In this document: piece after piece, positions 12,951 to 37,301 of the stretch | Numbering within the stretch: the first letter of the stretch is position 1 | How the letters are laid out: each line of letters opens with the position of its first letter | Source of the DNA: a virus | Strand: one strand, 5' to 3' | IMG/VR virus record: IMGVR_UViG_3300018481_000035 | Coordinates: 1 to 42,324 of that record | DNA: 42,324 nucleotides | Notes under the pieces: model-generated | Database searches by the model: none | Told to the model about the DNA's origin: nothing | The model's input: the letters and a program-made list of their open reading frames with translations, nothing else | Program-made: the position numbers and the translations under genes

Positions 12951-14267
12951 TTAGCCGATGAACTGACCACCGGAACTGATCGTACCCGGCAGGTTGCCGG
13001 GGATGGTTGAGCCAGCGGCGTATATCACGGAATTGCTGGTGCAGTTATATTGCACTCCGCTGACGTTGGAGTTGATCGACGGTGACCACACGACAGTCGA
13101 CAGGAACTGCGCGACAATTGTCGCCGACGTGAAGTTGACGTTTTGCACCGTCCACTGGTGCGGCGTCATCGCACCTTCGTCGACTACGACACCATTACCG
13201 GAGGCGATGAGAGCGCCGGCTTGTCCGATTCCGGCAAACGTCAGACGGCCGCCCATGTAGATGCGGCCCGACGTTTCGATGCCCCAGATCTCCGGCCCGG
13301 TAGCCAGCTGCTGGAGAATCGAATGCCTGATCTGAACCAGCGAGTTTTCGTTGCCGAGAGCGGCGTTGAACCCACCCTGATCGATCAGCAATGTGACGCC
13401 CTGCACCATCACCTTCGCGCAGTCGGTGATGTAGCAGGCATAGGACTTGCCATTGAGATAGCGCGTGCCCGCGATCCGGTAGGCTGACGGGTTGTTGACG
13501 TCTCCGGTGATGATCATGGTGATCGACGAATACGCCAGCCGCGCCGTCTCGTAGGTGCCCGGAATACCAAGCCTGAAGTGAATGGCGAAGCTTGGCGTCT
13601 GGGCGTAACGAGAGCCGATGGCAGCGAACGCGCCGTTGATGGTGCGGAACGCTTTGGCTGCCGAATTCTCGGTGCCGTCTCCGGTGGAGTCGTTGCCGTC
13701 GGTGCGCACCCACGCATCGATGGTGCCATTGGCTACGATGGGCACCTGAGATGCGACGAGACCAACAACGTAGAATGCGCCCTGCCAGTAGCTGATGATC
13801 AGCGGCTTTCCAGCACGCATGTCCAAGAACTGCAAGTTTGCGCCGTCGTTGCGAAGGATCGGCACCCAGCCCTTGTTGTCGATGTTGATGCGCGACACAC
13901 CTTGGTTGTTCACCGCAGGGATGACGACCAGCGTGAGGTGATCGTTGTAGCGCGTCAGCGTCGGGTTCATCGCCATGATGTAGTCGAACGGACCACCGCT
14001 GGCGTAGCTGCCAACCGGAATGCCGCGCTGGACGATGTAGCGAACTGCACGTTCGACATTGTCCAGATTGACGCACTGATACTGAACCTCACCTTTCATG
14101 ATGAGATTCATCTGCTCCGCCAGCATTGCGTTGGCGGCGGCAGGGTCAAACCGTGGCTGACAGCGAGAGGTCGAGTACCACAGTTCATTGCACCCCGCGG
14201 TGTCGACGTCGGGGAGCGAGTTTTTGGCTTCCCCCGGAGGGACGCCTGAATCAGGGAACATTGCCAT
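12951..14267 (-). CDS. putative beta-helix tail spike / fibre protein
   Basis: 438 residues. The N-terminal 120 residues are a mixed domain that differs from the neighbouring fibres. Then VRTDGNDSTGDGTENS and AKAFRTINGAF appear, the usual lead-in of right-handed beta-helix (pectin-lyase-like) tail proteins, followed by about 220 residues of short beta repeats with Asn/Gly turns. It may bind or degrade a surface polysaccharide; no catalytic residues can be named. AGGAAG precedes the ATG. Confidence 0.75.
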   Translation of the reverse strand: MAMFPDSGVPPGEAKNSLPDVDTAGCNELWYSTSRCQPRFDPAAANAMLAEQMNLIMKGEVQYQCVNLDNVERAVRYIVQRGIPVGSYASGGPFDYIMAMNPTLTRYNDHLTLVVIPAVNNQGVSRINIDNKGWVPILRNDGANLQFLDMRAGKPLIISYWQGAFYVVGLVASQVPIVANGTIDAWVRTDGNDSTGDGTENSAAKAFRTINGAFAAIGSRYAQTPSFAIHFRLGIPGTYETARLAYSSITMIITGDVNNPSAYRIAGTRYLNGKSYACYITDCAKVMVQGVTLLIDQGGFNAALGNENSLVQIRHSILQQLATGPEIWGIETSGRIYMGGRLTFAGIGQAGALIASGNGVVVDEGAMTPHQWTVQNVNFTSATIVAQFLSTVVWSPSINSNVSGVQYNCTSNSVIYAAGSTIPGNLPGTISSGGQFIG

Positions 14268-14271
14268 TTGG

Positions 14272-15771
14272 TTACTTCCTCTTCACGACTGTACCACCTT
14301 CAAGTGATTCTACCCTCGCCGCCAATTCCTTGACGGCGTTAACGAGTGCGTAAATCAACGGGTCCATTCCGAAAACGCGCAGATCATCGACAGCTTGGCC
14401 GTCGATATACCCATCACGTCTGCTCACCAACTCAGGCATCGCAGCTTCGATGTCCTGCGCCACCAGTCCAACGAACTCTTTGCCGCCAACCGCCACGTTG
14501 CGGTTGACCGAATTGGAGTACGGCACCGTCTGCGGCGGCGGCTCGCCCGCGCCGCGCCAATTTATGTCGGCAGGCTCACCGATGGAATCATTGCCCTTCA
14601 GCTTGTAGCGAATCGGGTTCAGCGTCTTGATCTGCGCAAGCCCGGCGGTGTACGCGCCCAGCACCGTTTTGATGCGTGCGTCGGAATAGATGTACCAAGT
14701 CGTCGTCGCCGATTTGAGCGCGCTGTCGCTGTAGTAATAATACCCGGCACCGCTGTCCCACATGCTGTGGTTCGTGATGCCGTTGGTGCCGCACTGAAGG
14801 TGCACATTGCCGCCGGTGTCCGCAATCATCGCGGCCAAATTGGTGCCGCTCATATGGTAGAGAAAAAAGTACGTCTGGATCGACATCTGGAAATTGCATG
14901 ACGGTCCGGTGACCAGATTTCCGTTGTTGACGGATGCTCCGGTATTGAAAAGTGTCGGACCAGACACGCTGATGCCGCCGCTGATAGCCGTATTACCAGC
15001 TATGACAACATTGCCGCTGGTGACATTCAGCCCGGCGGCGATGTTGGCCCCGCCAGTGGTGACGTTCAGCGACTGCGCTGTCAGCGCGTTGGAGATGTTG
15101 ACTACGCCGGTGAAGTTCGCCGCGCCCATCGTTATCAGGCCGGTCGAACGAGTGATCTGGAACGGAGCGCCAAGAGACTCCCCGGCATCGTTAAAGCGGT
15201 AGAGAAAGAGATCGCCGCCGACGTTACTGCCGGTTTCCAAAGCACCGCCAGCCACAAGACTCCAGCGCAGCAAGCCGCTTTTGGTGAAAGAGAAATTGTT
15301 ATTGTACCCGGCAGTACTGCCGTCGTAATCCAGCACCAACGAAGATTCTTTGAGGGAGCTTATCCACACCCGACCGCGAAATTTGCTCTCGCCAGTGGCG
15401 CGGTTGATGCGCAACGGCTCGTCCACATACACGCCAGCATCGTCATGACGCTGGATCGCGAAGTTGCTGCCGGTGTTGCCGCCGCCTTCCGGGTCGGTAC
15501 CGCCGAGCACGACACGCCATCGTGTGGCGGCTCCGTTGGCACCGGCAATCATGCTTGGCGCAGCACCGATCTTGCTGATCACCAGATTGCCCGTCATCAC
15601 GTCGCCGGTGATGTTCACATAGCGGTCGTCGCTTTCGACTTTGTTGTATGAATCGACCGTGCTGTCCGCCGTCAGCGGCTTCACGGTCCAGCCTTGGCCG
15701 TTCCACACATAAGTAAAGCCGACGGCGTCGAACTCCTGACCGATGGTCGGAGCGGCGGGGAAATCAATCAC
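14272..15771 (-). CDS. tail fibre with S74 intramolecular chaperone (1)
   Basis: 499 residues. Residues 1-35 are the shared cassette (DFPAAPTIGQEF, then YVWNGQGW), followed by a SYNKVESDDRYVNITGDVMTG module typical of fibre necks. A beta-rich shaft contains an N-V-T-S-G-N-V-V-I-A-G stretch. The C-terminal chaperone begins at about residue 363 (SDARIK) and continues with GLAQIKTLNPIRYKLKG, FVGLVAQDIEAAMPELV and a terminal coiled coil. In this family the chaperone cuts itself off before the SD motif after trimerisation. The start overlaps the upstream stop (ATGA). Confidence 0.9.
   Translation of the reverse strand: MIDFPAAPTIGQEFDAVGFTYVWNGQGWTVKPLTADSTVDSYNKVESDDRYVNITGDVMTGNLVISKIGAAPSMIAGANGAATRWRVVLGGTDPEGGGNTGSNFAIQRHDDAGVYVDEPLRINRATGESKFRGRVWISSLKESSLVLDYDGSTAGYNNNFSFTKSGLLRWSLVAGGALETGSNVGGDLFLYRFNDAGESLGAPFQITRSTGLITMGAANFTGVVNISNALTAQSLNVTTGGANIAAGLNVTSGNVVIAGNTAISGGISVSGPTLFNTGASVNNGNLVTGPSCNFQMSIQTYFFLYHMSGTNLAAMIADTGGNVHLQCGTNGITNHSMWDSGAGYYYYSDSALKSATTTWYIYSDARIKTVLGAYTAGLAQIKTLNPIRYKLKGNDSIGEPADINWRGAGEPPPQTVPYSNSVNRNVAVGGKEFVGLVAQDIEAAMPELVSRRDGYIDGQAVDDLRVFGMDPLIYALVNAVKELAARVESLEGGTVVKRK
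15580..15771 (-). repeat. fibre N-terminal cassette, copy 1
   Basis: Encodes residues 1-64 of the S74 fibre and matches 16883-17074 almost throughout at protein level. The DNA differs mainly at third codon positions, so the duplication is old and the protein sequence has been kept. Likely the common docking and neck module. Confidence 0.75.
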
Positions 15772-16073
15772 GGCGCGGTTTCCTTCAGCGCATTCTGGAA
15801 TTCTTCCTGCGTCATCGGCGGTAGCCCTTCCAGTGTGCGCAAACGATTTTCATGCGCGAACATCAGCGATGTGCCGGGTGGCGGCTTCAGTGGTGCCATC
15901 ACTGGTCCCGGCAGTCGCGTCGGTTCGCTGAACACGCCGTTGACGTAAAGCCAGCCGATCTGCGCCTCGTCATTCTGCACCCACGTATTGAAGTTGGGCC
16001 AGTCCGGCGTCATTGGCGTGTTGAACGTCGCACGATTGACGACCACACCGTTTTCGATCTGGCAGTAGATCAT
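15768..16073 (-). CDS. tail-fibre-assembly-like protein, 101 aa
   Basis: Short protein starting MIYCQIENGVVVNRATF, with W and G positions (WVQNDEAQIGWLYVNGVF) as in small tail-fibre assembly proteins. It ends with ENRLRTLEGLPPMTQEEFQ. It sits between two fibre genes, coupled to both by ATGA overlaps. It may chaperone one of them or cap a fibre; the family link is by look only. The longer open frame upstream is a shadow of the neighbouring gene. Confidence 0.65.
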   Translation of the reverse strand: MIYCQIENGVVVNRATFNTPMTPDWPNFNTWVQNDEAQIGWLYVNGVFSEPTRLPGPVMAPLKPPPGTSLMFAHENRLRTLEGLPPMTQEEFQNALKETAP

Positions 16074-17074
16074 GGGGCGCAAAACTCCGTAATCATCACA
16101 AGTCCACCGGCACCGTGGCCGCCTTGAAGGTTGGCGGCATAGTGATACGTCGAAGCGCCGCTGCCGCCGCCGCCCCATCCGATAGAACTGTTGCCGTGGT
16201 ATCCCTGACCACCGTTGGTTTGCGGGGCCACAGCACCGCTACCACCAAGCGGACCCGGCGCACCGGACCCACTCCAAGAGGTAATCGCGTTTGTTGTCAC
16301 ACTAGGGTTGGAATAGCCCGCCTCACCCGGCTGCCCGGCGTAGGTCAGATCGCCTATTGCGCCGGTCACACCGGCTCCCGGCCCAGCCGACGCAAAATGC
16401 GGCGAGCCGCCACCACCATTGGCTTTGCAAAGAGTGCCGACGCTCGTAGCCCCGCCGGTGCCGCCGTAGTACCCGGCAGCGCCGAGGCCGGCAGCGCCTA
16501 TGGTGACAGGCTGCGATGCGCCGATCTCAGCCTTGGTCGCCAGCTTACGCGAGTAACCGCCGCCGCCGCCTCCGCCGCCTTGAACCAGCGCCTCTGCCGC
16601 GCCGATTGATCCTCCACCAGCGCCGCCCGCGCCGATGGCTTCGATCATCGCGAAGAGCATCTTAGGGTCCGGCGTGTACGTGCCGGACGCGGCGATCATC
16701 TTGAAACGGATAATGACGCCGCCCCTGAGATCGGCGTACTGCTTGGTGACGGCGTGCATTGCCGCGGTCGGATCGGCATGCAGCGACAGGAAGCCGGTCA
16801 GCAGGCCGCCCGCGAACGACAGCTTGGTGTCGGCGTATTGCTTCGTCGCGGCTTGCAGTGACGAAGCCGGGTCAGCCGGCAGCACCAGCGGACCAGTCAT
16901 CGTGTCGCCAGCGACGTCTACATAACGAGCGTCACTCTCGATCTTGTTGTAGGAGTCGGCCCCGCTGTCCACCGACAGCGGCTTTACGGTCCAACCTTGG
17001 CCGTTCCAGACGTAGGTGAAGCCAACAGCATCGAACTCTTGGCCGATGACCGGAGCGGCGGGAAAGTCGATCAA
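16070..17074 (-). CDS. glycine-rich tail fibre / adhesin-like protein
   Basis: 334 residues. Residues 1-64 repeat the cassette and neck of 14272-15771. Two further neck-like segments follow with A-A-T-K-Q-Y-A-D and A-V-T-K-Q-Y-A-D. After IIRFKMIAASGTYTP (about 128) the C-terminal 190 residues are extremely Gly-rich with runs of four to eight glycines, as in phage Gly_rich_2 / polyglycine adhesin tips. Such tips carry receptor loops between glycine sheets. The start overlaps the upstream stop (ATGA). Confidence 0.85.
   Translation of the reverse strand: MIDFPAAPVIGQEFDAVGFTYVWNGQGWTVKPLSVDSGADSYNKIESDARYVDVAGDTMTGPLVLPADPASSLQAATKQYADTKLSFAGGLLTGFLSLHADPTAAMHAVTKQYADLRGGVIIRFKMIAASGTYTPDPKMLFAMIEAIGAGGAGGGSIGAAEALVQGGGGGGGGYSRKLATKAEIGASQPVTIGAAGLGAAGYYGGTGGATSVGTLCKANGGGGSPHFASAGPGAGVTGAIGDLTYAGQPGEAGYSNPSVTTNAITSWSGSGAPGPLGGSGAVAPQTNGGQGYHGNSSIGWGGGGSGASTYHYAANLQGGHGAGGLVMITEFCAP
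16883..17074 (-). repeat. fibre N-terminal cassette, copy 2
   Basis: Second copy of the cassette at 15580-15771, encoding residues 1-64 of the glycine-rich fibre. Same direction, 1.3 kb apart, with the small assembly-like gene and the first fibre's upstream edge between them. Confidence 0.75.
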
Positions 17075-18777
17075 GGCGCACCCTCCAGCGCAGCGACACG
17101 CGCCAGCAACGCATCATTTTGCGCTGACAATTCCTTGACGGCGTTGATCAGCGCATAGGTCAGCGCGTTGGTATCCATCATGCGCAGGTCGGTGACATTA
17201 GTGCCGTCAATGGTGGCAGCGCGCGTGGTCACCATTTCCGGCATAGGTATCTCGGCGGCTTGCGCGACCAGACCGATGTACTCGCTACCCGCCAGCGCCG
17301 CCTGATAGTGCTGGCTGTCCGGGTTCGGCGTACCAATCTGGTGCGGCGTTTCCCGCGTTTTCGAGGGCTGCACCGTGACCTCGTTGGCCTTGTAGACGTA
17401 CTTCACCGGCGACAGCTGCTTGATCGCTTCCAGCCCCCGCGTGTAGTCGCCGGTCACGGTCTTGATGCGCGCGTCCGACTCCACACCCCACGGTCCGCCG
17501 CCGGGCTTGTACGCAGCACCGGCCCAGTGCATGTCCCATAAGCCAGCAACCAGAACCATGATGGACGAAGCACCGTGCAGCCAGCGCATCGTGCCGGTGT
17601 GACCGTCGACCGACCACGACGAGCCGCCAGTGAAACGGATCGACGTCATTGCATCCGAATCGAACGTATTCCAAAGACCGAAATCTTCACGAACACGAAG
17701 GCCGCGCGGCGCACGGGGGATGGCGTCTTGCGCGCTGAGCCACAGCGCAGGGATGTGCACACCGGCGTTACCGACACGGAACCACATGTGGCCGCCGGTA
17801 TCCGTGCCGATGCCTGCCCAGTTGTTGCCGCTGCCGTAGAGCAGGATGTTGGCGTCTGTGGTGTAAACACCGCCGGATGCCGGGTTGCCGTCGGCATTGC
17901 CGAAATTGTTGCCGTTCTTGAACGTAGTGAACGTGCCACCGATCACGACATTGCCAGAAGCCGTGACGCTGCGGATGTTGCCGAAATCGCCAGACGGGTT
18001 CAGCGAACCGATTGTTTTCTGATTAGCGCCGCCGATCTTCCCGGTGTCGGTGACGATCCAGAAAAAGCCGCTGCCACCAGCTTTGATAAAGCTGTTGAAT
18101 TGACGACTGGTGCACTCAAGCGTGCCGGACCCGTTGGCGTCGAACGTCGTGTTGACGCTGTCCACGCCGTTGCTGACCGTGAACGGAATTTTGGTGTTCA
18201 GCCCGGCGGTGAAGTTGCCCGACCTAGTCTGCGAGTTGAGATAGAACGTCGGTGCAAGCCCGCCGGCGGTGCCAACACGGAACCACATGCTCCCAGCGGT
18301 GTCCGCACCAATACCCGCCCAGTTATCCGCGCCAGCATCGTAGAGACGGATGTTGGCGTCTGCCTGCGCCACTGGCAGAACGGCTGAAGGCCCAGAAGCG
18401 TTGCCGAACATCGATCCGTTCGGCGTCACAATGAGCGGTCCGCTCATCGTATCGCCGGTGAGATTTACGTAGAGATTGTCGGCCGTGGCTTGATCGAGAC
18501 CGCCGGTGCCTTCGCCGGTGCTGCTCGAATATCCGTTGACCTGCACCCACTGCGAGGTATTGCCGTCGTTGTACCAGATCCAGAGGATTCCAATGTCGGA
18601 TTCAAACCAGAGATCGCCCTGCGAAGGACCGACTGGCGGATCATCGGAAATAGTGTGCAAGCCGTGTGTGACACTCGACTGTACGGCCCAGCCCTGTCCA
18701 TTCCAGACGTAGGTGATACCGCTCGCAGTGTAGGTGTCGTCGACAGCTGGCGCGGTCGGAAAATCAAATACAGCCAT
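17071..18777 (-). CDS. tail fibre with S74 intramolecular chaperone (2)
   Basis: 568 residues. Residues 4-32 form the FP-x-AP / YVWNGQGW cassette. About 54-80 is a GDLWFESDIGILWIWYNDG module, about 93-118 a LDQATADNLYVNLTGD neck. The body has an internal repeat: residues 139-180 and 308-347 share NWAGIG-x-DT-x-G-x-MWFRVG. The chaperone starts at about 434 (SDARIK), with YIGLVAQAAEIPMPEMV and a C-terminal coiled coil. It is expected to self-cleave and yield a trimeric fibre. One base separates it from the upstream gene. Confidence 0.9.
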   Translation of the reverse strand: MAVFDFPTAPAVDDTYTASGITYVWNGQGWAVQSSVTHGLHTISDDPPVGPSQGDLWFESDIGILWIWYNDGNTSQWVQVNGYSSSTGEGTGGLDQATADNLYVNLTGDTMSGPLIVTPNGSMFGNASGPSAVLPVAQADANIRLYDAGADNWAGIGADTAGSMWFRVGTAGGLAPTFYLNSQTRSGNFTAGLNTKIPFTVSNGVDSVNTTFDANGSGTLECTSRQFNSFIKAGGSGFFWIVTDTGKIGGANQKTIGSLNPSGDFGNIRSVTASGNVVIGGTFTTFKNGNNFGNADGNPASGGVYTTDANILLYGSGNNWAGIGTDTGGHMWFRVGNAGVHIPALWLSAQDAIPRAPRGLRVREDFGLWNTFDSDAMTSIRFTGGSSWSVDGHTGTMRWLHGASSIMVLVAGLWDMHWAGAAYKPGGGPWGVESDARIKTVTGDYTRGLEAIKQLSPVKYVYKANEVTVQPSKTRETPHQIGTPNPDSQHYQAALAGSEYIGLVAQAAEIPMPEMVTTRAATIDGTNVTDLRMMDTNALTYALINAVKELSAQNDALLARVAALEGAP

Positions 18778-18778
18778 G

Positions 18779-20128
18779 TCAGCTGCTCCCCGACTCTATC
18801 GGCATTCCGATGTATGTTTTCATTTTGTTGATCTCGGCGTGCAATTCCTTGACGGCGTTGATCAATGCGTAAGTCAGCGCATTGCTGTCGAGCACGCGCA
18901 AGTCAGTGACCGCTTGGTTGTTGATGAAGCCCGGCCGCTTCTTCACCAGTTCAGGCATGGCGGCTTCAACTTCCTGCGCGATGAGGCCGACGAATTCCCT
19001 GCTGTTTTTAGCAGCCAGATGGTTCACCGAACTTGGGTACGGCACCGTGACTGTGCCGTCGCGAACAACCGGATCGTATGGCTTGTCGAACGTGTCATTG
19101 CCCTTGAGCGTGTAGCGCACCGGGTTGAGCGTCAGGATTTGCGCAAGCCCGTGGTCGTAAACGCCAGTGACATTCTTGATGCGTTCGTCGGACGGTGCGA
19201 CCCAAGGCCCGCCGCCGGGCTTGTAAGCCTCGCCAGTCGCTTCAATGTTGTGGTCGGTCTGGATTTTGAGCGCCAGCGCCGTGCCAACGGAACCGTTGAC
19301 AAAAAGTATCGAGCCGCCTGAATCGGTGGTGATGGCGGCGTGGTTCGTGCCGTTCATGAAGTAGAGGAAGATCTGCGACTGCAAATCTACGATGATGGAA
19401 CCAGCGTTCGCCGGAGAATGAATGGTCAACGGGCCGGTCATCGTATCCCCGGCCTTGTTTACTTTCAGATCGGAGTACTGCTTGGTAGCGACCCCCAGCG
19501 GCAGTGTCGGATCATGCGACACTGTCACATCGCCGTTCGCGCGACTAATAGTAAGCGGTGCATCGACCACGGCACCCATGTCGTTGTGCCGCACGATGGT
19601 GAAATCTGACCCGGCACCAGTGTTGCCGACGACGACATCCCAGTGCGCAATGCCGCTCTGCATTCCGGTGAGCTTCGCCGAACTGTTCAGCGGCTTGTTC
19701 AGGATAAGATTCGGTTCCAGCTTGCTGATCGCAAGATTGCCGCTCATCTGATCGCCGACGAGATTGACGTAGAGCAAATCGGCGCTGGGCTGGTCGAGAC
19801 CGCCGCCGCCGCCGCCACCGCTGCTGCCTCCGCTGCTGCCTGCGGCCTGCACCCACTGCGCAGACGTGGCATCGACGTAGTACATCCAGAGTGTGCCGCT
19901 ATCGGTTTCCCACCAAAGCAAACCTTGCGTCGGAAACAGCGGTGCCTGCTCAGAGACCAACGCCGTGTGCGTGATCTGCTTCATGCCCATCGGGTCGAGC
20001 GCCGTCGGCACACCGACCCACATGCGGAACGGGCTAGCCATCTCCACAGACAGTTCACCCGGCTCAAGCGAAGCCGGTGGCAGGTTCGGCTGTGCCGTTC
20101 GCTTGATCTTAACTTTTGGGTCGGCCAT
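18779..20128 (-). CDS. tail fibre with S74 intramolecular chaperone (3)
   Basis: 449 residues with a different N-terminus (VKIKRTAQPNLPPASLEPGELSVEM), a widespread phage fibre head. Then come GLLWWETDSGTLWMYYVDA (about 69-87), a Ser/Gly hinge at 98-110 and LDQPSADLLYVNLVGDQMSG. The chaperone begins at about residue 313 (SDERIK), with GLAQILTLNPVRYTLKG, FVGLIAQEVEAAMPELV and a terminal helix. The distinct head suggests it docks on the baseplate, while others may dock on it. Confidence 0.9.
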   Translation of the reverse strand: MADPKVKIKRTAQPNLPPASLEPGELSVEMASPFRMWVGVPTALDPMGMKQITHTALVSEQAPLFPTQGLLWWETDSGTLWMYYVDATSAQWVQAAGSSGGSSGGGGGGGLDQPSADLLYVNLVGDQMSGNLAISKLEPNLILNKPLNSSAKLTGMQSGIAHWDVVVGNTGAGSDFTIVRHNDMGAVVDAPLTISRANGDVTVSHDPTLPLGVATKQYSDLKVNKAGDTMTGPLTIHSPANAGSIIVDLQSQIFLYFMNGTNHAAITTDSGGSILFVNGSVGTALALKIQTDHNIEATGEAYKPGGGPWVAPSDERIKNVTGVYDHGLAQILTLNPVRYTLKGNDTFDKPYDPVVRDGTVTVPYPSSVNHLAAKNSREFVGLIAQEVEAAMPELVKKRPGFINNQAVTDLRVLDSNALTYALINAVKELHAEINKMKTYIGMPIESGSS

Positions 20129-20409: not shown

Positions 20410-20940
20410 TCAGTACACTCCGCAATCGATGACGCCCACCTTGAATGGGTTGCCGGGAAGCCCAGCGCCGACGATGGAGACGTTGTCCACCACCGTCTTG
20501 CTGGTGATTTGAACCCACTGCACGGTGTTGCCGTCGTTGTAATGCAGGAACAGGAATCCAGTATCCGATTCCCACCAAAGTTGGTTGTCCGCTGGCGTAG
20601 CCGGCGGCTCGTCACCGACCAGCACGCCAGCGATGTGAATCTCCATCCACGCCGTGAACGATGCGCACAGGTTCTTCAACGAATCGCAATTCCACGTCCC
20701 TTCCGGGTCGAGGCATTCGGCGAAGCTCAGCAGTTCCGAGACTATGGCGTTGACCTGCCGCGGCTCGATCCGCGCATCGCAGTCCGACGGCAGTGCCGCG
20801 GCATCGCACGGTGTGATGATGAACGGCGGCAGCGGCGAGTAGGCGTTCTGGACGTTCGGCGGGTCAAGCGGCGTGCCGGTGGCATCGCGGTAGATGACGC
20901 CGCCTGCGGAGACCAGATCGGGAAAAATGGTGTTTGCCAT
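20410..20940 (-). CDS. proximal fibre / baseplate-associated protein, 176 aa
   Basis: The N-terminal part (IFPDLVSAGGVIYRDATGTPL) is unlike the fibre cassettes. The middle is helical (IEPRQVNAIVSELLSFAECL). The C-terminal part has the module N-Q-L-W-W-E-S-D-T-G-F-L-F-L-H-Y-N-D-G shared with the downstream fibres, and five cysteines are present. Position right after the gp48-like gene suggests a connector between baseplate and fibres. ATG 20940 overlaps the upstream stop (TGATG). Confidence 0.7.
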   Translation of the reverse strand: MANTIFPDLVSAGGVIYRDATGTPLDPPNVQNAYSPLPPFIITPCDAAALPSDCDARIEPRQVNAIVSELLSFAECLDPEGTWNCDSLKNLCASFTAWMEIHIAGVLVGDEPPATPADNQLWWESDTGFLFLHYNDGNTVQWVQITSKTVVDNVSIVGAGLPGNPFKVGVIDCGVY

Positions 20941-21893
20941 CAGCAGCACCGCACGATGTTAGAGGGACAGGCCGGTAGCATCATCGACCTCACAATACAT
21001 TCAGCAGCGAGCACGCCCGGCCACACACGGTCAGGCAGGCCAGCAGGTCGATCACAGCCGCGGTCCCAATACGCGGGAATTTTTGGAAGCGGCATCTGCG
21101 TCTCGCAGATGTCGCCGGAGCCGCAGCCCTCGATCCAGTCCTGCTTGTTGCAGATTTCGAATTGCGGATTGTCCGTGCACAACAACGCGCACGGATTGTC
21201 CGAAGTGTAGACGTAGATCGGCTTGAGTTCGGCACCGAGAGATTCGATCACCCAGTTCAAGCCGCACAGTGTCTTGATCACGCCCATGTTGGCGCGATTG
21301 AGCGCAATGGCAATGCCGCGTTTTATCGCGCACTCCAGTTCGGGCGGATAGTTCGGCGGGCAGAACACCGGCCCGCAATCCGACCAGACTTCCAGCGGCG
21401 TCAGTTCGCCAAGCAGAACGGAACGGCAGTGCTGGTTGTAGCAATCCTCCCATCGCAATCGCGACAGGTGGTTATCCAGCGTCGTTACCGACGTCCACGG
21501 ATTGCTCTCGCGCAGCGCCGGCCATAGCGCACCGTGCACCACCTTGCGTAGCTTCAGCACCGTGTAGATCGCATGCAGCACCAGCGACGGGCAGCGCGGG
21601 TCTTGCAGCAGCGGGCACAACTCCGGGTGCTCCGGGTTGCTTTCGAAGTAGCTGATCGCCTCCGCTTTCCAGTAGTCCCAGAGCGGTCCTGAAGGCAGCA
21701 AGTTCATAAACGCCACGAAGGTGCAGCAGAGATCGTTGCCGCACAATGGTGGCGGACAGCACCCGGTTTCTTCTAACTCCGTGCATGGCTGGCACCCATC
21801 GGCGGTAAGACACTCACCCGGCGCTGGTTGTGGCACCGGCGCAATCGGATGCATAGGTGCATCGATCAGGCAATTGTCGGAATAATCTAGCAT
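20940..21893 (-). CDS. Mu gp48-like (DUF2313-type) baseplate protein, Cys-rich
   Basis: 317 residues, placed after baseplate J like Mu gp48. The likely core includes FVAFMNLLPSGPLWD (about 58-72), the usual GP-x-W near the start of this family, and LCGLNWVIESLGAELKP. It is longer than typical members and holds 27 cysteines, clustered in residues 28-58 (CQPC, CCPPPLC, CC) and in the C-terminal third. Disulfide or metal binding is possible. It overlaps baseplate J by 7 bases. Confidence 0.75.
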   Translation of the reverse strand: MLDYSDNCLIDAPMHPIAPVPQPAPGECLTADGCQPCTELEETGCCPPPLCGNDLCCTFVAFMNLLPSGPLWDYWKAEAISYFESNPEHPELCPLLQDPRCPSLVLHAIYTVLKLRKVVHGALWPALRESNPWTSVTTLDNHLSRLRWEDCYNQHCRSVLLGELTPLEVWSDCGPVFCPPNYPPELECAIKRGIAIALNRANMGVIKTLCGLNWVIESLGAELKPIYVYTSDNPCALLCTDNPQFEICNKQDWIEGCGSGDICETQMPLPKIPAYWDRGCDRPAGLPDRVWPGVLAAECIVRSMMLPACPSNIVRCC

Positions 21894-23107
21894 TGCTGGA
21901 ACACCGACTCAGGTCCGGTGAAGAAGATGCTTTCAAGACACGGCAGCACATCGCACTCCGGCTCAAGCGCACAGTCTGTCATGTAGACCAGCGTGCGCGG
22001 GTACGGCGGCGATGCCGTCTCGTAGCCGATGACTTCGAACCGAACCGATGCGTTGACATTGGCCCCGACAACATTGGCGACGATTAACTCCAGTTGCTTG
22101 GTCGTCAGTGGCATCGATGGGCAGATCGTCTTGAACAATTCACGAATGTAGGTCTCGATCATCTGCTTCTGCGCCGTGCTCGGACAGCCTGCAATGTCGA
22201 CGTAGACGTTGATCGGCAACGGGATCGGCCGGACCACGCCGCCGCACACACCGATCTCGACTTGCCCCTCGCCGTAACCTTGGTGCGTGCCGAACATCCA
22301 CTCGGTCAAATCATCAACAATGTTCTGCGGTGGGATTCCGCACGGGAAGCTGTCATCGAACAGCACGTAGAAATACATGCCCGTGCCGCAGTTCTTGCAG
22401 CCACAGTCGCCGCAGTCCGGGTCGCAGCGGCAGCACGAACCTTCACGAACGCAGACCCGTGTGGCGCACGGGAATTCCAGAAACTTCTGCTTGATCCACG
22501 CCATCGTGGCGCGCGGCTGGTACGCCAGCCGTTCAAGGTATCGCTTGCGAAACTCTTCACAGGTCTCTTCCGCCGAACCGCCGCAGAACGCGCCGCCGCA
22601 GATCGTCACTTCGGCGTCGATGCCCGGTGCCGGCGTAACCAGCGTACCTTCGGTCACCGCGCCGTCAGAGTTCATCTCCGGTCCCGGTGCCAGCGCGCGG
22701 ATGCGCACGATGATCGAACCCGAGTCCGGCATCTCCAACGGTATGGTGCCAACCGACACGAAGGTGCCCGAGTCTGTCTGTATTTCAAACGTCGCCGGAA
22801 TCGGCGACCCCGGCACGCCGGTTAGTTTGGCGTAGCCTTCAGCATGTGACGCCGGATGGGGAAACACGCCATTGCGCGCCGCCATCTTGTACAGGTTCTC
22901 GCAGCACGCCGTCTCCGGGTTGGTCTCGCGCCACATCTGGTCGGCGATAGCGTAGAACTGTTCGGCCGCGGCGTAGTCGTTTGTGACGACGTACCACTCG
23001 TTCGATTCTGGATAGATCTTGCCCCCGCCCAACACCGTGGACGAGAACATGTTCTTCAGGTGATCGAACAGTTCCTGCGGATCTGGTCGTGGAATTGTGC
23101 ATGACAT
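21887..23107 (-). CDS. baseplate J-like protein, Cys-rich
   Basis: Baseplate wedge protein of the Mu gp47 / P2 gpJ family, 406 residues. The N-terminal helical part is followed by the GVPGSPIPATFEIQTDSG region (about 98-115), GTLVTPAPGIDAEV and the ETCEEFRKRYLERL-x-YQPRA segment, which are the J hallmarks. A unique insertion follows CATRVC (about residues 215-240), with ten closely spaced cysteines. In total there are 23 cysteines. It follows the gp46-like gene with a 6-base gap. Confidence 0.88.
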   Translation of the reverse strand: MSCTIPRPDPQELFDHLKNMFSSTVLGGGKIYPESNEWYVVTNDYAAAEQFYAIADQMWRETNPETACCENLYKMAARNGVFPHPASHAEGYAKLTGVPGSPIPATFEIQTDSGTFVSVGTIPLEMPDSGSIIVRIRALAPGPEMNSDGAVTEGTLVTPAPGIDAEVTICGGAFCGGSAEETCEEFRKRYLERLAYQPRATMAWIKQKFLEFPCATRVCVREGSCCRCDPDCGDCGCKNCGTGMYFYVLFDDSFPCGIPPQNIVDDLTEWMFGTHQGYGEGQVEIGVCGGVVRPIPLPINVYVDIAGCPSTAQKQMIETYIRELFKTICPSMPLTTKQLELIVANVVGANVNASVRFEVIGYETASPPYPRTLVYMTDCALEPECDVLPCLESIFFTGPESVFQQC

Positions 23108-23113
23108 GGTGCG

Positions 23114-23716
23114 TCAGTGCCAGACCCAAGTCTCGGAGACGAAGCTGCCTGACAGATTGATGCGACTTTGCCCGGTAGCCGTAGTCACAACGACAACAAC
23201 GGCTACGTTACTGGACCCACGATATGTCGCTTCAACGTCGACAGTTTCGGCAATGCCGAGAGCTATCAGTTTCCCCATGTCCGCACGAACAGCGTTAGCG
23301 ATAGCCTTCACTGCATCGGCGGTGCGAACGTATGATTTCTCTGCCGCGTTCCACATCGTCGAGCCGATGTACAGGCCGTCGTCACGATACGACTCCGACC
23401 AATGGCCATACGTTGCAGCTGGCGTTGGGCACCGCATGTCGGTGCGCGCCCGCGTGTTCAGGATGTTGAGGATGTAGCCTTGCAGCCACCCCTCTGTCTT
23501 GATTGTGCGGTACTCGCCTTCGTGGTGGTCAGGCGGGTTTATCGGGTGTGACGGATACGGGTCCGGGTTCTCGATGTCTTCGTATTCAAGCCCCGGAATG
23601 GCGCAGTCGACACCACACAGCGTGTAGGTGCCGCACGCCTCCGCCCGAGTCGTCCAGAACATCCGGCGATGGCCGGTGCTCGGCTCAAGACAAGGGTCGA
23701 TCTTCTCAAAGTGCAT
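23114..23716 (-). CDS. gp46-like baseplate wedge protein
   Basis: 200 residues; Mu gp46 / P2 gpW-type baseplate protein. Typical features are GWLQGYILNILNTRARTD-like and SESYRDDGLYIGSTMW segments, the AAEKSYVRTADAVKAIANAVRADM helix and the C-terminal beta part with V-E-A-T-Y-R-G-S-S-N-V-A-V. The N-terminal 60 residues are longer than usual and include a Cys patch. ATG 23716 overlaps the gp45-like gene by 11 bases. Confidence 0.82.
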   Translation of the reverse strand: MHFEKIDPCLEPSTGHRRMFWTTRAEACGTYTLCGVDCAIPGLEYEDIENPDPYPSHPINPPDHHEGEYRTIKTEGWLQGYILNILNTRARTDMRCPTPAATYGHWSESYRDDGLYIGSTMWNAAEKSYVRTADAVKAIANAVRADMGKLIALGIAETVDVEATYRGSSNVAVVVVVTTATGQSRINLSGSFVSETWVWH

Positions 23717-24320
23717 CGCCGAGATCCAGTTCGAACTGCGCCGGCTGACTGCCGCCACCGCTGCTACCGGATTTCTTTTTCTCCTCCTGCTTATTGCCTT
23801 GGAAACTCGGCGGCTTCTGACTGCCGCGCACCACTTCCGGCGTTCGGATCAGTCTGTTGACGATAAGCTCGCCGTCAATGATCAGTTTCTTGACGCGGAA
23901 CACACCTTCCTCGCCCTTGATCTCGAATTCGCCCTTCTCACCGACCGCAAACTTGTTCTTGGTGACGTGCGCCAGTTTGTCGGAAAAGTGCAGCGAGAAT
24001 TCGTCATCGGTCGGATGCTGAACACCGCCTTCGCCTTCCGGCCAGCGGCGCTGCTTATCGTGCGGCGTCGTCAGCACCGCCACCTTCAGCTGTGTGTCAC
24101 TCGACGACGACAGCAGGAACACTTCAGCGTCATGATCTTTCTTCAGTTTGAATCCGGCCCCGCCGATGACGAGCACGGTGGCTTCCTCGTCCTTGGTGTC
24201 GGTACCGTTGACCTTGATGGTCGCGCCCTGTTCCTCATAAGTCAGTTCGTGCCAGACGTGGCGTTCGACTCCGTCCTGAACATCTCTCGACCGCGCGTTG
24301 TAGGGAACGAATGTCGTCAT
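23706..24320 (-). CDS. gp45-like baseplate assembly protein (spike/gpV type)
   Basis: 204 residues matching the Mu gp45 plan. A helical start (PYNARSRDVQDGVERHVWHELTY in part), an OB-like beta domain with H-D-A-E-V-F-L-L-S-S-S-S-D and a beta C-terminal domain (FAVGEKGEFEIKGEEGVFRV) form the central spike base. A Gly/Ser/Lys-rich linker and a short acidic C-terminus follow. The start overlaps the gp44-like stop (ATGA). Confidence 0.8.
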   Translation of the reverse strand: MTTFVPYNARSRDVQDGVERHVWHELTYEEQGATIKVNGTDTKDEEATVLVIGGAGFKLKKDHDAEVFLLSSSSDTQLKVAVLTTPHDKQRRWPEGEGGVQHPTDDEFSLHFSDKLAHVTKNKFAVGEKGEFEIKGEEGVFRVKKLIIDGELIVNRLIRTPEVVRGSQKPPSFQGNKQEEKKKSGSSGGGSQPAQFELDLGDAL

Positions 24321-25678
24321 GAGGTCTCTCCGAACCACGGGGGAAGGGTTAACGGCGGGGTCTTGCGCATCTCTTCTTGCTCTTTTTTCTGTTCGTCGGT
24401 CAGCGGCTTAGCAGCCAGTTCGACCAGCGACATCAACGGCAATTCGCTCAGCATAGGCGGCCCCCACGCATCGGGATACTGCCCGTCTACTATTGGTATG
24501 CCGGCCTGCCCGCGGCGGGCCATGCCGATACCCATGTTGAGGAGGGACAATCCAAAACCGCCGCCACCACCACTGCCGCCACCCGCGCCGCCCGATGGCG
24601 GCGGTGACAGCGTCAGCGTGGTCTTCAGTTCCTTCTCGGCGTTGACGTGGTAAGTCAGTTCCGTGCATTCGAACATGTCGAAGATGCCTTCCGGCGGCAC
24701 CTCGACGTAGTGGCAGTTGCCAATGTCCCACGGTCCGCCGGATGACATCACATGGAACACCTCGATGGTGATCTTCTGGCTCGCGCTGTTGCGCTTGTTC
24801 ATTTCGAACCGCGCACGACGTTCCAGTTCCTTGTCGGTGGCATCACCGTAGTGCGGGATCGTCAGCAGGTTTTTGCTTTTGACCTTGCTGTTCTTCACCG
24901 TCTTATGGGTCTTCTCCAGCGCCTTCTTGCCCCGGATATCCTTCTTGGTGCGCTGGCCCTTCACCTTCACTTCCGACTTGGCCTTGTCCTCAGACTGCTC
25001 AGCCGAGAACGTCAGGATGTTCTGGCCCAAGATGAGCGGCTCGCCGCCGCTGGTCATGCCGGCCACACCGTCACAGACCACCAGATTGCCTTCACGGCTC
25101 TCGTACATGAAGTAGCAGTACTCGGTCGCGATCCGTTGCAATTCGTCGAGCACCAGCGCGCCGTCACGAAAGCGCACCTTGTCTAGCTTGATGACCTCAC
25201 CCTTCCAGTCGGCACGTATCTGCCACGGCTCGATCAGCTTCTCGACGACTTCCTTTGTGGTGGGCTGCATCATGTTGGTGGTCGGGTGCTGATGCGAACT
25301 GTCGATCAACCGCTTGGTCTTGCCGCGCGCCGTAAGCTTGATGGTGTACTCGTTCGGGCCGATGCTGACGCTGGTTGACGCTTTGCCCTCCGCACCCTTG
25401 TCAGCCTTCTGGTTCTCCTCGTCGGCACCCTTCTTGCCTTTCTTGGTGCCGCTGCCTTCGCGCTTATCGACCGAACCACAGAACGCCAGCTGGCCGCCGA
25501 TGTATACGTTGATCGGAGCGCCACACTTGGCAGCCCCTATCATCGGAGCGGACGCCATCGCACCGGCGAAGATGGTGACGCTGAGCGATCCGGTCATCTC
25601 ATCCTTGGACCGTTGCAGTGTCATCTCAGTCCAAGTATCGAGCGCCGATCCACCGATGGTGATAACGACCGGCGTCAT
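24317..25678 (-). CDS. gp44-like baseplate hub protein with C-terminal extension
   Basis: 453 residues, Mu gp44 (P)/gpD-type hub. The opening VVITIGGSALDTWTEM-like strand set, VYIGGQLAFCGSVDKRE, and the helical domain with LVLDELQRIATEYCYFM and EGNLVVCDG are the family core. There are a Lys/Glu-rich insertion (about 74-98) and an unusual tail of about 85 residues after a Gly linker (about 365-378), ending in PPWFGETS. The start overlaps the upstream stop (ATGA). Confidence 0.82.
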   Translation of the reverse strand: MTPVVITIGGSALDTWTEMTLQRSKDEMTGSLSVTIFAGAMASAPMIGAAKCGAPINVYIGGQLAFCGSVDKREGSGTKKGKKGADEENQKADKGAEGKASTSVSIGPNEYTIKLTARGKTKRLIDSSHQHPTTNMMQPTTKEVVEKLIEPWQIRADWKGEVIKLDKVRFRDGALVLDELQRIATEYCYFMYESREGNLVVCDGVAGMTSGGEPLILGQNILTFSAEQSEDKAKSEVKVKGQRTKKDIRGKKALEKTHKTVKNSKVKSKNLLTIPHYGDATDKELERRARFEMNKRNSASQKITIEVFHVMSSGGPWDIGNCHYVEVPPEGIFDMFECTELTYHVNAEKELKTTLTLSPPPSGGAGGGSGGGGGFGLSLLNMGIGMARRGQAGIPIVDGQYPDAWGPPMLSELPLMSLVELAAKPLTDEQKKEQEEMRKTPPLTLPPWFGETS

Positions 25679-26868
25679 GTCGGCGAGATACCAGACACAA
25701 TCATGCCGAAGCGTCCGTTTGCATCGACAATGTTGCGCTCCTCAAGCTCGCGGTGCCGCTTGGCATCCTTGTAGATTGTGTAGGCTGCGACCAGCGGATG
25801 AACACCGCCAGAAAAATTGACCAGTATCTGACCGGGCAGACGGTACGACAGGTCGTACATCATCTTGCTGAACTGGGTTGCGTACTTCTCGATCTCGATG
25901 AACAGCGCGTTGTCACATTGGACGTAAGCTGCGTGGGCCTCGTCCTCCAACACCGCCATCACACTTGCCCGCGCGGCCAGCGCCTCTTCAACGGTCGGGT
26001 ACTTCCGCCCCATCGCCGCTTCGGCCATGCCGACGCCGGCGAGAAGTCTGAACCTGCTGACGACCGCTTCGTCGCTGATAACGGCCGGGCCGGGCGGCAG
26101 ATTTGGCGTCGTGGTCGCTGTGTTGGCGAACCGGCGGAAGATATCGAACTTGCTCTTGAGATCGGTGACGTTGCGCTTGATAAGCTCGAAACCCTGAACC
26201 AGCGCGTCATCGACGACCGGCGCGGACAGCGCCAGCGCGTCATCCTTGGCGACTTCCCACATGCGGAAGACCGCGCGCCAATCGTTGGCCGGTGAGCCGG
26301 AAACGACAACGTGTTCGGCGACCGTCGCAACAGACCAGATCAGGCCTTGCGCCTTGTCGACGACCTGCTCCTTCCACGGCAACGGCACTATGGTCGGCGT
26401 GTAGTCCCGGTAGAAGGACGTTTGTGACGCCGCAAACAATCCAGTGGAGATGATCCCAAAGATCGATCCCAGTATCCCGCTGAAGCCGATGTTCGCCTCG
26501 ACGAACTCCAGATCAGCAGTCGTCTCGCCCGCCGCGTCCTCCAGCTTGTCTGAAACCTTAACAGAGCGGCACGCAACCATGACGGAGCCGCGTGTAGGAT
26601 GGACAAGAATACCCGGCCCCGGAGATTCGCAAGCCGTGAACAGCGCATGACTATCCCAGACGTGGTTGTCTTCACGGAAAACTGCGGTGAGAGAGTAGAC
26701 GCGGATCTTGCGCCCAAGGTCCGCGTAAGCCGTGTGCTCGCCGAAGGGGAATTCCCCTTCGGCACCACGGCGACCGCCCTGAACGTCGGCTTCAGTACAC
26801 CAGAACGCGACCCCCTTGAAGGAGGCCTGAACGACGTCTTTGCCGATGGCGCAGGCGGAACGAGACAT
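25675..26868 (-). CDS. DNA circularisation / gp43-like tail protein
   Basis: 397 residues. The N-terminal domain (ASFKGVAFWCTEADVQGGRR, then FPFGEHTAYADLGRKIRVYSLTAVF, and HPTRGSVMVACRS) matches DNA_circ_N, the Mu gpN / gp43 family. That family lies between tape measure and hub genes and forms part of the tail tip despite its name. The C-terminal part is helical. ATG 26868 directly follows the stop of the 37-residue peptide. Confidence 0.88.
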   Translation of the reverse strand: MSRSACAIGKDVVQASFKGVAFWCTEADVQGGRRGAEGEFPFGEHTAYADLGRKIRVYSLTAVFREDNHVWDSHALFTACESPGPGILVHPTRGSVMVACRSVKVSDKLEDAAGETTADLEFVEANIGFSGILGSIFGIISTGLFAASQTSFYRDYTPTIVPLPWKEQVVDKAQGLIWSVATVAEHVVVSGSPANDWRAVFRMWEVAKDDALALSAPVVDDALVQGFELIKRNVTDLKSKFDIFRRFANTATTTPNLPPGPAVISDEAVVSRFRLLAGVGMAEAAMGRKYPTVEEALAARASVMAVLEDEAHAAYVQCDNALFIEIEKYATQFSKMMYDLSYRLPGQILVNFSGGVHPLVAAYTIYKDAKRHRELEERNIVDANGRFGMIVSGISPT

Positions 26869-30781: not shown

Positions 30782-31228
30782 TTACGCCGCTGTGGCGAAT
30801 GTCGGCTGGATGACCTGCTCGGTGGATTCGAGTGTGCCAGCCGGCAGCAGTTCGTCGATGAACTTGAACGAGATAGTCAACGTCACCTCATGGGTGTCCG
30901 ACTTCTCGTCGCCTGTGCCGGTGCCTTTGGCCGCCGAATAGACCAGCCCATTGTAGTACTCGACCTGTAGCGTGACGTCGCTACAGCCTTGGTACATGGC
31001 AAGGGGAATCCGCAGATCGCGGATCACCTTGATCTCGACCTCCGGGTTGGTCGGCTGGCGCTTAACGTAGCCTTCCGGCAACGGCTCGTTGTTGAACGCG
31101 CAAAGCCGCCACGTCGGCAAATCCTCACTCGACAGCTTGTGAGCAATCGGTCCGTAGATCGCTCCCGTATCGCAGTCGAGGAACGTCATGAGGATGTTCT
31201 TGACGCCAACTTGATTTTCGCAAGTCAT
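30782..31228 (-). CDS. tail tube protein
   Basis: 148 residues directly after the sheath gene, in the position of Mu gpM. The sequence is beta-rich with a late helix (FKFIDELLPAG). The end matches the usual tube fold order of strands, helix and strands (VTLQVEYYNGLVYSA, then EVTLTISFKF). AAAGGAG lies upstream of ATG 31228, fitting a highly expressed structural gene. Three cysteines (two near the N-terminus). Confidence 0.8.
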   Translation of the reverse strand: MTCENQVGVKNILMTFLDCDTGAIYGPIAHKLSSEDLPTWRLCAFNNEPLPEGYVKRQPTNPEVEIKVIRDLRIPLAMYQGCSDVTLQVEYYNGLVYSAAKGTGTGDEKSDTHEVTLTISFKFIDELLPAGTLESTEQVIQPTFATAA

Positions 31229-31252: not shown

Positions 31253-32770
31253 TCAGCAGTTGCTGAGCATTGCCGGTTTTGCGTTGATGGTGATGGTGGA
31301 GATGCGGACCGGCGGACGGTACGTGAAGTCGATCCACAGTTTGCCGGGGATGCCCTGACACTTCGGGGCAACCTCAAAGTCGGTCTTCAGGATGATGTCC
31401 TGATCGATGTTCTCGAATTCGGAGAACAGGTAACCGACCTGCGACTTGGCCCAAGCACGGAACTGGCCAAGGATCATGCGCGGATTGGTGCCCCGCACGC
31501 CGGCAGGCACCGTGGTGTTCTTGGTGAACAGGCCAAGCCCCACCACCTGACCAAGCGCAATCGCGGCCTGATCCGCAGTCGCAGCAGCAAGCCGCCGCGA
31601 GTTCACGTTCCACCACGTCGCGTTCAGACGACCGTTATCGTCGTAACGGTTGTTGGTGGAGTCGTTGACAACCATCGGCTGAGTCATCGCGCCGGTGCCG
31701 CCTTGCAGCGGAACGGTGACGACGAAGCCAGTGGCTTGCAGCAACTGCTGCTCGTCGAACGTGAAGCACTGGAAGCAGGCTTCCGGCTGACGCAGACACG
31801 CAAGGATTCCGAAGTTCGGACCCTGCACCGACATCTCCGGGTGGTCGATGGTGATGCAGCAGGAGTGCGCCGCATAAGCCGCCGCCTTCAGCCAGCCAAC
31901 AATCGGATCGGACCAGCAATGGGCGATACGGGAGACCTCCGCCGAATTGGTGTCGGAGGCGAGGATCTGGCCGAACGAGCCATAGTTGTAGGTGTAGCCG
32001 TGACCGAAGCACTGCGGCTTGTCGCACGACCATGCGGAAGCGATGTAAGCGATCATCGCATCCTGCCAGTTGTCATTGGCGTACAGCATGCCGATGCAGC
32101 AGTAGCAGCACTCGCCGAGAATGGCGTCGTAGTTCGGCGTGGCGAAGTCGATGTGCGTGCCTTGCACGGTCTGCGCGAATGCCATCTCGACACCGGCCGG
32201 AGCGTAATCACGGCGCTCATGCCAGTTGTAGATGACGTTCATGGCGTTGCCGACGGTGCCCTTATTCTTGGCCGTCAGCGTGATCACGCCGGTTGCCGCA
32301 ACAGCGGTGTAAGGCAAGCCCGCTTCGGCGTTGAGCGCCAACGCCACGTTGGTCGCGATCTCTTCAGCGGTGTCACCTTCGTGCACGCGCGTCGAGGTGT
32401 TGTAGCGACCGTCGACCATGAACAGATCGACGCGACCGTCACTGAGCGCCTCGCCAGTGAAGGTCAGCGTGTACGCCGCTGCCTGATCGGCACCAACGTC
32501 AGCGTCTTTCCACGGCAGGGCGTAGAACTCCATGGCGTGGTTCGGGCAGCACAGGAAGGCGGTCTTGAGACCTTCCGCGATGATGCTGCCCTCTCCGAAG
32601 AGAACATCGGCATCGCGCAGCGACGGAATCTTCAGCAGTGCGCCGGATTCCGCAGTGCCGGCATCAAGCATCTGACCCTCGATCAGAATGCGGCACTTGT
32701 TCTTGTATGCGTTGAGGGAAGGGTCAAAGCAGATGCGGATCGCGCCGGACCGCAGGCTGTCGATTGACAT
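31253..32770 (-). CDS. contractile tail sheath protein
   Basis: 505 residues, close to Mu gpL length. Hallmarks are the beta-rich N-terminus, the central YTLTFTGEALSDGRVDLFMV and GDTAEEIATNVALALNAEAGLPYTA domain, and the C-terminal R-M-I-L-G-Q-F-R-A-W / FENIDQDI / KLWIDFTYRPPVRISTITI end, which is typical for sheath subunits. There are 18 cysteines, including the dense ECCYCC (about residue 220), unusual for a sheath. AAGGAG upstream. It proves a contractile tail. Confidence 0.92.
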   Translation of the reverse strand: MSIDSLRSGAIRICFDPSLNAYKNKCRILIEGQMLDAGTAESGALLKIPSLRDADVLFGEGSIIAEGLKTAFLCCPNHAMEFYALPWKDADVGADQAAAYTLTFTGEALSDGRVDLFMVDGRYNTSTRVHEGDTAEEIATNVALALNAEAGLPYTAVAATGVITLTAKNKGTVGNAMNVIYNWHERRDYAPAGVEMAFAQTVQGTHIDFATPNYDAILGECCYCCIGMLYANDNWQDAMIAYIASAWSCDKPQCFGHGYTYNYGSFGQILASDTNSAEVSRIAHCWSDPIVGWLKAAAYAAHSCCITIDHPEMSVQGPNFGILACLRQPEACFQCFTFDEQQLLQATGFVVTVPLQGGTGAMTQPMVVNDSTNNRYDDNGRLNATWWNVNSRRLAAATADQAAIALGQVVGLGLFTKNTTVPAGVRGTNPRMILGQFRAWAKSQVGYLFSEFENIDQDIILKTDFEVAPKCQGIPGKLWIDFTYRPPVRISTITINAKPAMLSNC

Positions 32771-33072: not shown

Positions 33073-33636
33073 TCACAGACACGGATCGACTGGCTCCGGG
33101 CACGGGTCGGGGATACAGGCCGGCGGCGTGCACAGGTTGAAGCCAACCGTGAACGGTTCGCCGAAGTCCGTGTTGGTCGGACACCAGCGGAACGTCGCCA
33201 TGAAGGTGAACGTCAGTGTCACCGCCAGTGGCTCAGCTTCAATCGTCAATCCACGATAAGCAACCCGCTCACCGCCCGGCGGCTCCCAGCGCACCATGTT
33301 GGACAGCAGCGTATCTCGGATCGCCTCGTAATCGTAATAGCTCCAGAACGGCGTCTCGGTGCCGTTGGCCTTCTTGTAGCGCGCCGGCTCAAGCCAGAAG
33401 TCGACAATGAAGGTGTCGACGACTTCGAACATCTCAGCGTTGCTGTGGGAAGGTGGACTGGCCGTCGAGCGGATGAACGCCGCCATGGCCAAGGGGAGGG
33501 TCGGGACGTTGTCTTTGGTGATCGATACTTCTGAAACTGCCAGCGCCCGTCCGTTCAACTCAGGAAACCAAAGGGCGAGTTGCTCGGCGAGTGCTGGCAG
33601 GAATTTTTGCTTTGCGGGTGTTACCCGTGCATCCAT
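33073..33636 (-). CDS. gp37-like tail terminator/completion protein
   Basis: 187 residues in the position of Mu gp37, just before DUF2635 and sheath. Features are a helical start (KFLPALAEQLALWFPEL), a beta core with ALAVSEVSITKDNVPTLPLAM and VVDTFIVDFWLEPAR, and an aromatic middle. The C-terminal end is a Pro/Cys tail (about 168-187, PPACIPDPCPEPVDPC) with four cysteines after a Cys at about 152. The ATG directly follows the preceding stop. Confidence 0.65.
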   Translation of the reverse strand: MDARVTPAKQKFLPALAEQLALWFPELNGRALAVSEVSITKDNVPTLPLAMAAFIRSTASPPSHSNAEMFEVVDTFIVDFWLEPARYKKANGTETPFWSYYDYEAIRDTLLSNMVRWEPPGGERVAYRGLTIEAEPLAVTLTFTFMATFRWCPTNTDFGEPFTVGFNLCTPPACIPDPCPEPVDPCL

Positions 33637-36897: not shown

Positions 36898-37301
36898 AAC
36901 AAATGTTTCGGTGTCTGCCACGGTGTAAACTTTCGCTTGGCCCAATCGATCCAGCCCAGATCAGGATTGATCGTGCGGCTCAGCTTCACCTTGGCGCGGA
37001 GATCGTCTTTGTCGTCGACCTCCTGCATCACACTGATGAAGCCGTCGATATCGGCTTTGAATTTCAACTGACGATCCGACCGCTCGCCGATTAACCGCAT
37101 CGACAACGGCGACAGCATGGTCGGACGACCGTCGGTGACAAGAACATCCGCGACATTCGGCACGTAAGGACTGAACTTCGCGCCGTTCTCGGACGCGAAC
37201 ACGAACAGCCGGCCAAGCTTGCCGGTAGGAGGAAGCTGGCCGCGGATGACGACTTCGTCCCCGCGGCCAACCTTTAGCATGTTGCCAACCGGCACTCTCA
37301 T
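36894..37301 (-). CDS. head-region hypothetical protein, 135 aa
   Basis: Mostly beta protein (KLGRLFVFASENGAKF, VPNVADVLVTDG) with a basic C-terminal segment. ATG 37301 overlaps the previous stop (ATGA); the in-frame extension upstream is a shadow of the decoration-like gene. Located between the decoration-like pair and the connectors, probably a head component. No family recognised. Confidence 0.65.
   Translation of the reverse strand: MRVPVGNMLKVGRGDEVVIRGQLPPTGKLGRLFVFASENGAKFSPYVPNVADVLVTDGRPTMLSPLSMRLIGERSDRQLKFKADIDGFISVMQEVDDKDDLRAKVKLSRTINPDLGWIDWAKRKFTPWQTPKHLL

Follow-up and report, generated by a model that had tools for sequence, protein, structure and literature searches.

Paired cysteines in the baseplate wedges of an uncultivated phage point to an extended Milano-type disulfide network

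The window, by which we mean the whole stretch of DNA analysed here (42,324 nucleotides; positions 1 to 42,324 of IMG/VR virus record IMGVR_UViG_3300018481_000035), carries structural genes in the order portal, capsid, collar, sheath, tube, tape measure, hub and wedges 1–3. This order is collinear with that of Agrobacterium phage Milano and of Synechococcus phage Yong-L2-223. The features that concern us are the following.

12951–14267, minus strand: second fibre protein, with the same N-terminal Cys anchor as the short tail-fibre anchor protein
20410–20949, minus strand: short tail-fibre anchor protein; Cys at the positions of Milano gp31 Cys29, Cys38 and Cys67
20940–21893, minus strand: baseplate wedge 3 at the gp48/gpI position, Milano gp30 homologue (phmmer); 317 aa, 27 Cys
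21887–23107, minus strand: baseplate wedge 2, J family, Milano gp29 homologue (Pfam, phmmer and AF2 fold); 406 aa, 23 Cys
22388–22468, minus strand: Cys-dense loop of wedge 2, residues 214–240 (alignments); 9 Cys
23114–23758, minus strand: baseplate wedge 1, GP46 family, Milano gp28 homologue (Pfam GP46)
25675–26868, minus strand: baseplate centrepiece, Milano gp25 homologue (homology)
30782–31228, minus strand: tail tube, Milano gp21 homologue; Cys 3, 19, 43 and 82 all conserved
31253–32770, minus strand: tail sheath, Milano gp20 homologue; 18 Cys
33073–33636, minus strand: tube terminator, Milano gp18 homologue; Milano Cys156 equivalent present
35079–35783, minus strand: neck 1, Milano gp14 homologue; Cys117 and Cys120 equivalents present, Cys136 replaced by Ser
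35777–36475, minus strand: collar, Milano gp13 homologue; 12 Cys in 232 residues
37736–38134, minus strand: minor capsid/decoration protein, Milano gp10 homologue; 4 of 4 Milano Cys conserved
38171–39619, minus strand: major capsid protein, Milano gp9 homologue; 9 of 9 checked Milano Cys conserved

The true start of wedge 1 is probably internal, near 23716, and the protein holds Cys equivalent to Milano Cys3, 22, 32 and 74. In the collar, all 7 Cys of the Milano protein are conserved and five are added. The decoration gene lies next to a paralogue of the same Milano gp10 family (37298–37714), each with 4 Cys, where Milano has a single copy. Three fibre-like genes (14272–18777) share the N-terminal motif DFPxAPxxxxxxxxxGxTYVWNGQGW, and together with an S74-chaperone fibre (18779–20128) they form an expanded fibre cassette.

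An earlier, sequence-only reading of this DNA counted 27 Cys in 317 residues of a gp48-like protein and 23 in 406 residues of the J protein, and judged this far above the usual level. The open reading frame translations bear out both counts. The Cys share is 8.5% in wedge 3 and 5.7% in wedge 2, and at a background of 1–1.4% Cys the binomial chance is 6e-17 to 2e-13 and 5e-11 to 3e-8, respectively. For comparison, J has 4 Cys in Mu, 3 in P2 and 0 in Bordetella phage PBb002, and the gp48/I-like proteins of these phages have 2, 3 and 2. The refuting case named by the same reading, that common homologues share the Cys count, holds within the Milano-like lineage only and fails for J proteins generally. 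Nor is the Cys richness limited to the baseplate pair: Cys are plentiful in the collar, sheath, tube, capsid and decoration proteins as well. The earlier reading had overlooked that the trait extends through the whole virion and is already described.

The two proteins had been linked to the baseplate J and DUF2313 families, and the first of these links stands. The Baseplate_J profile (PF04865) matches wedge 2 (E=6.6e-16, 58.8 bits vs a curated cut-off of 21.1). A phmmer search with wedge 2 found chain F1 of 8FQC (E=4e-107) and also 9RKU, and wedge 2 is 44% identical to Milano gp29. An AF2 model built from 11 close relatives, with a poor mean pLDDT of 61, was superseded by one built from 39 relatives (mean pLDDT 83), whose top fold matches were 9RKU and 8FQC, with chain Ao of 9RKU the best. 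In contrast, the DUF2313/Mu gp48 profile did not match the 317-aa protein, for which no Pfam or PHROG family was found at E≤0.1. It was assigned to wedge 3 because it is homologous to Milano gp30 (38% identity), with phmmer matches to chain Ai of 9RKU (E=8e-54) and chain J1 of 8FQC (E=4e-53). Wedge 3 also has an N-terminal extension bearing Cys at residues 8, 28 and 37, a feature of just 3 of 45 genomes, the window and those closest to it.

In Milano, solved by cryo-EM, disulfides crosslink all tail components, and the inter-subunit bonds have been tabulated (Sonani et al. 2024, PMC10811340). A disulfide network also runs through the neck and capsid of Milano, where the trait was linked to the Agrobacterium host (PMC10491603), and the capsid of phage 7-7-1 has a similar network (PMC12796354). 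We mapped 18 tube, sheath, hub and wedge pairs and 13 neck and capsid pairs of Milano onto the window, leaving out the LP1/LP2 and tailspike gp124 pairs. Both Cys are present for 28 of these 31 pairs. Among the tube, sheath, hub and wedge inter-subunit pairs 16 of 18 are complete, the missing ones being sheath 47–182 and wedge-1 29–sheath 501; among the neck and capsid pairs 12 of 13 are complete, the missing one involving neck Cys136. The centrepiece preserves its links to wedge 2 and the tube through C318 and the N-terminal C6. In wedge 2, the Cys bonded to the short fibre in Milano (302, 224 and 367) are conserved, as is the fibre anchor Cys38, which bonds wedge 2, in two fibre proteins of the window. 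A three-sequence alignment placed Y229 of the window in the Milano pair BW2 282–BW3 206 (wedge 2 to wedge 3) and so suggested its loss; we regard this as a misalignment, since a larger alignment puts window C235 there.

Wedges 2 and 3 very probably belong to a Milano-like contractile phage in which baseplate disulfides block contraction until they are reduced at the host. The wedge Cys would form disulfides within and between subunits, joining wedge to wedge, sheath, hub and tail fibres, and the conserved part of this network would be the one solved in Milano. The baseplate would stay shut, and the sheath uncontracted, until the bonds are reduced. For the window virion, a phage known here from its genes alone, we infer bond formation, locking and the identity of the reductant. 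Alternatively, the Cys might serve only as armour against heat and shear, with no part in the gating of contraction. Milano particles, once reduced, lose resistance to heat and sonication (PMC10491603), and most of the pairs conserved in the window lie where no opening is needed, as in the capsid, tube and collar. However, the window also conserves wedge–wedge, wedge–sheath and hub–wedge pairs, and the Milano authors argued that the baseplate network must open almost wholly before contraction (PMC10811340). Moreover, the Milano tail does not contract in denaturant alone but does so in denaturant with DTT (PMC10811340). A purely protective role seems rather unlikely to us.

The Cys that are added in this lineage allow a second line of evidence, from a tree of 45 genomes built from alignment columns without any Cys. 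On this tree, wedge 3 C188 and C257 shared all 12 of their 12 changes and were discordant in 0 of 45 genomes. Wedge 3 C248 and C316 shared 9 changes among their 9 and 10, and C34/C210 of the same protein is also a covarying pair. In wedge 2, C219/C329 and C256/C390 shared 3 of 3 changes each. The residues that replace these pairs are diverse (A/V, Q/V, N/V, E/V, R/V, D/W). The best Cys pair reached p=4.9e-15 vs 1.5e-7 for the best pair of the 19 other residue types, where the p-values assume exchangeable branches and thus give a ranking, not exact probabilities. Perfect pairs with at least 3 shared changes made up 3 of 703 eligible Cys pairs vs ~20 of several hundred thousand non-Cys pairs. 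Both members of the Milano pair BW2 282–BW3 206 were lost in the same four genomes. For the known pair BW2 234–BW2 282 no covariation was seen, which is due in part to the two partners of Cys234.

Change by exact pairs is what disulfides predict, whereas metal binding would call for groups of three or four Cys. The joint gain and loss of the extra Cys points to new disulfides, proposed here from sequence alone, and most of the extra Cys would be additional pairs inside or between the wedge proteins. More generally, Cys that appear and vanish together allow disulfides to be proposed for virions without a structure. Compositional drift, or a functionless codon or amino-acid bias of the host, has virtually no chance of explaining the Cys richness. 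It is refuted by the paired change of the variable Cys; many Cys columns are invariant among wedge-2 homologues that are just 39–50% identical to the window; and there are 0–2 Cys in the tape measure, chaperone and spike and in many fibre proteins that this operon encodes.

The sequence-only reading also noted a Cys-dense insertion of about 25 residues in J, with Cys-x2-Cys-like spacing, that typical J proteins lack. Alignment confirmed it: residues 214–240 of wedge 2 have no counterpart in Mu gp47 or PBb002 J, and the insertion is common to ~40 relatives. Its Cys lie at positions 214, 219, 225, 226, 228, 232, 235, 237 and 240. The number of loop Cys is 8–10 in the ~40 relatives, 6 in the Synechococcus phage and 4 in Milano. 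C226 is the equivalent of Milano Cys224, which bonds the tail fibre, and C240 that of Milano Cys234, which bonds the neighbouring wedge 2. Because it holds these two Cys, the insertion sits on a known crosslinking site. C228, C232, C235 and C237 have no Milano equivalent. C232 and C235 each vary independently, and a search for their partners by cross-protein covariation gave no clear one.

The same reading had offered zinc or Fe-S binding as well as disulfide locking, and the loop could hold a metal knuckle (CxxC...CxxCG) made of C225-x2-C228 and C237-x2-C240-G, with the remaining Cys in disulfides. The spacing is zinc-ribbon-like with a variable linker between the halves, and the loop lacks a confident AF2 model (residues 229–239 at pLDDT<50). 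C228 and C237 always occur together or not at all, yet they share just two changes on the tree. Against a knuckle, both C240 and C226 match Milano Cys that are in inter-subunit disulfides (PMC10811340), and the window retains C288 and C406, the partners of the Cys234 equivalent. C225 does not vary, even in Milano, where C228 and C237 are absent, and elsewhere in wedges 2 and 3 the changes involve two Cys at once, not four. We consider a knuckle improbable. The disulfide part of the earlier proposal draws strong support from the homology with Milano and 7-7-1, in whose solved structures the bonds are seen, and from the pairwise gain and loss of Cys, whereas the metal part received no positive support.

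In the contracted Milano sheath Cys47–Cys182 is the one bond that is broken, while Cys14–Cys244 and Cys216–Cys327 persist (PMC10811340). The sheath of the window has the pairs 14–244, 216–327 and 467–501, but K47 and R186 stand in place of 47–182. The latter is Cys/Cys in only 3 of 31 full sheaths, namely those of Milano, 7-7-1 and OLIVR4, and mostly Lys and Arg in the other 28; the Cys at Milano positions 14, 216, 244, 327, 467 and 501 are invariant in 31 of 31. Since the Cys at 47 and 182 are confined to three Agrobacterium phages, the bond broken by contraction is the unshared one. With that bond absent and the contraction-surviving bonds kept, the redox lock of the lineage would lie in the baseplate alone, provided that no replacement sheath bond exists. 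Two sheath pairs of the window lineage, 225/304 and 285/335, do covary. They could lie within or between subunits, and new inter-subunit bonds could replace 47–182. The bonds common to all members can now be separated from sheath 47–182, found in Agrobacterium phages only, and what is reduced, and where, at tail firing becomes testable by comparing the two types of phage.

How widely does this network occur? Among isolated phages, only three that infect Agrobacterium, with four records between them, and two Synechococcus phages were found to carry close homologues of both wedges. In IMG/VR, two scans turned up 61 loci, of which one is phage 7-7-1 and several are near-duplicates, and nearly all loci keep the Milano Cys. 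Bacterial genomes yielded nothing when searched with a single protein and two finds when searched with an alignment: a Bradyrhizobium lablabi prophage and, in a Bartonella MAG, a less closely related copy. The former occupies ~60.7–88 kb of a 303-kb scaffold (NZ_LLYB01000081.1) and runs from terminase to fibre genes, followed by bacterial genes. It is apparently an integrated relative of the window phage, a hint that one branch is temperate and that rhizobia serve as hosts; phage 7-7-1 is reportedly lytic. The prophage is rare, present in 1 of 266 genomes of the genus Bradyrhizobium, and 397 genomes of the order added only the same prophage. The contig of the uncultured Bartonella MAG (CAMLBF010000001.1) encodes a wedge 3 with 14 Cys, a wedge 2 with 17 and a tube with 3, possibly an intermediate with a thinner network.

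As the loci outside Agrobacterium keep the Milano Cys, the disulfide network is not tied to that genus. The occurrence of network Cys, as read from the genes, in ~60 uncultivated phages, the Synechococcus phages and the Bradyrhizobium prophage is new, and it calls for an explanation other than an Agrobacterium host. A phage-encoded redox enzyme of the thioredoxin (PF00085) or glutaredoxin (PF00462) family as trigger or oxidant was rejected: neither of these two families was found in Milano, 7-7-1, OLIVR4, Yong or the scanned uncultivated genomes. The oxidant and reductant are thus presumably environmental or host-derived. It is about an even bet that redox-gated contractile tails extend throughout the lineage in phages of Hyphomicrobiales and cyanobacteria, with a baseplate-only gate outside Agrobacterium, sheaths that retain just the contraction-surviving disulfides, and wedges that add paired disulfides. 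On this reading, local reduction at the baseplate would trigger firing.

Virus particles of this lineage appear to be stitched together by disulfides, and the window appears to represent a variant with a denser baseplate network and no contraction-broken sheath bond. Its predicted virion is of a known kind, the Milano-type disulfide-crosslinked particle, in a distinct variant, and the host range of the lineage, judging by its members, is wider than described. With Milano (8FQC; PMC10811340, PMC10491603) the window has gene set and order in common, and the fibre-anchor Cys are conserved. It differs from Milano in lacking sheath Cys47–Cys182, wedge-1 Cys29 and neck Cys136, in having more Cys in wedge 3 (27 vs 14), wedge 2 (23 vs 17) and the loop (9 vs 4), and in adding several new covarying Cys pairs. 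The likenesses and differences are the same for 7-7-1 and OLIVR4 (Schmittlotzvirus; 9RKU for 7-7-1; PMC12796354), both of which have sheath 47–182.

For the Synechococcus phages Yong-L2-223 and Ssp-JY38, a literature search gave no structure or disulfide study. Their sheath is closer to that of the window (60% identity). Like the window, Yong-L2-223 lacks sheath 47–182, and it has 21 Cys in wedge 2 and 25 in wedge 3; unlike the window, the Synechococcus phages have a 6-Cys loop without C228 and C237. Mu gp47/gp48 and P2 J/I, in contrast, have 2–4 Cys per protein and no Cys-dense loop, while they share fold family and gene position with the wedges of the window.
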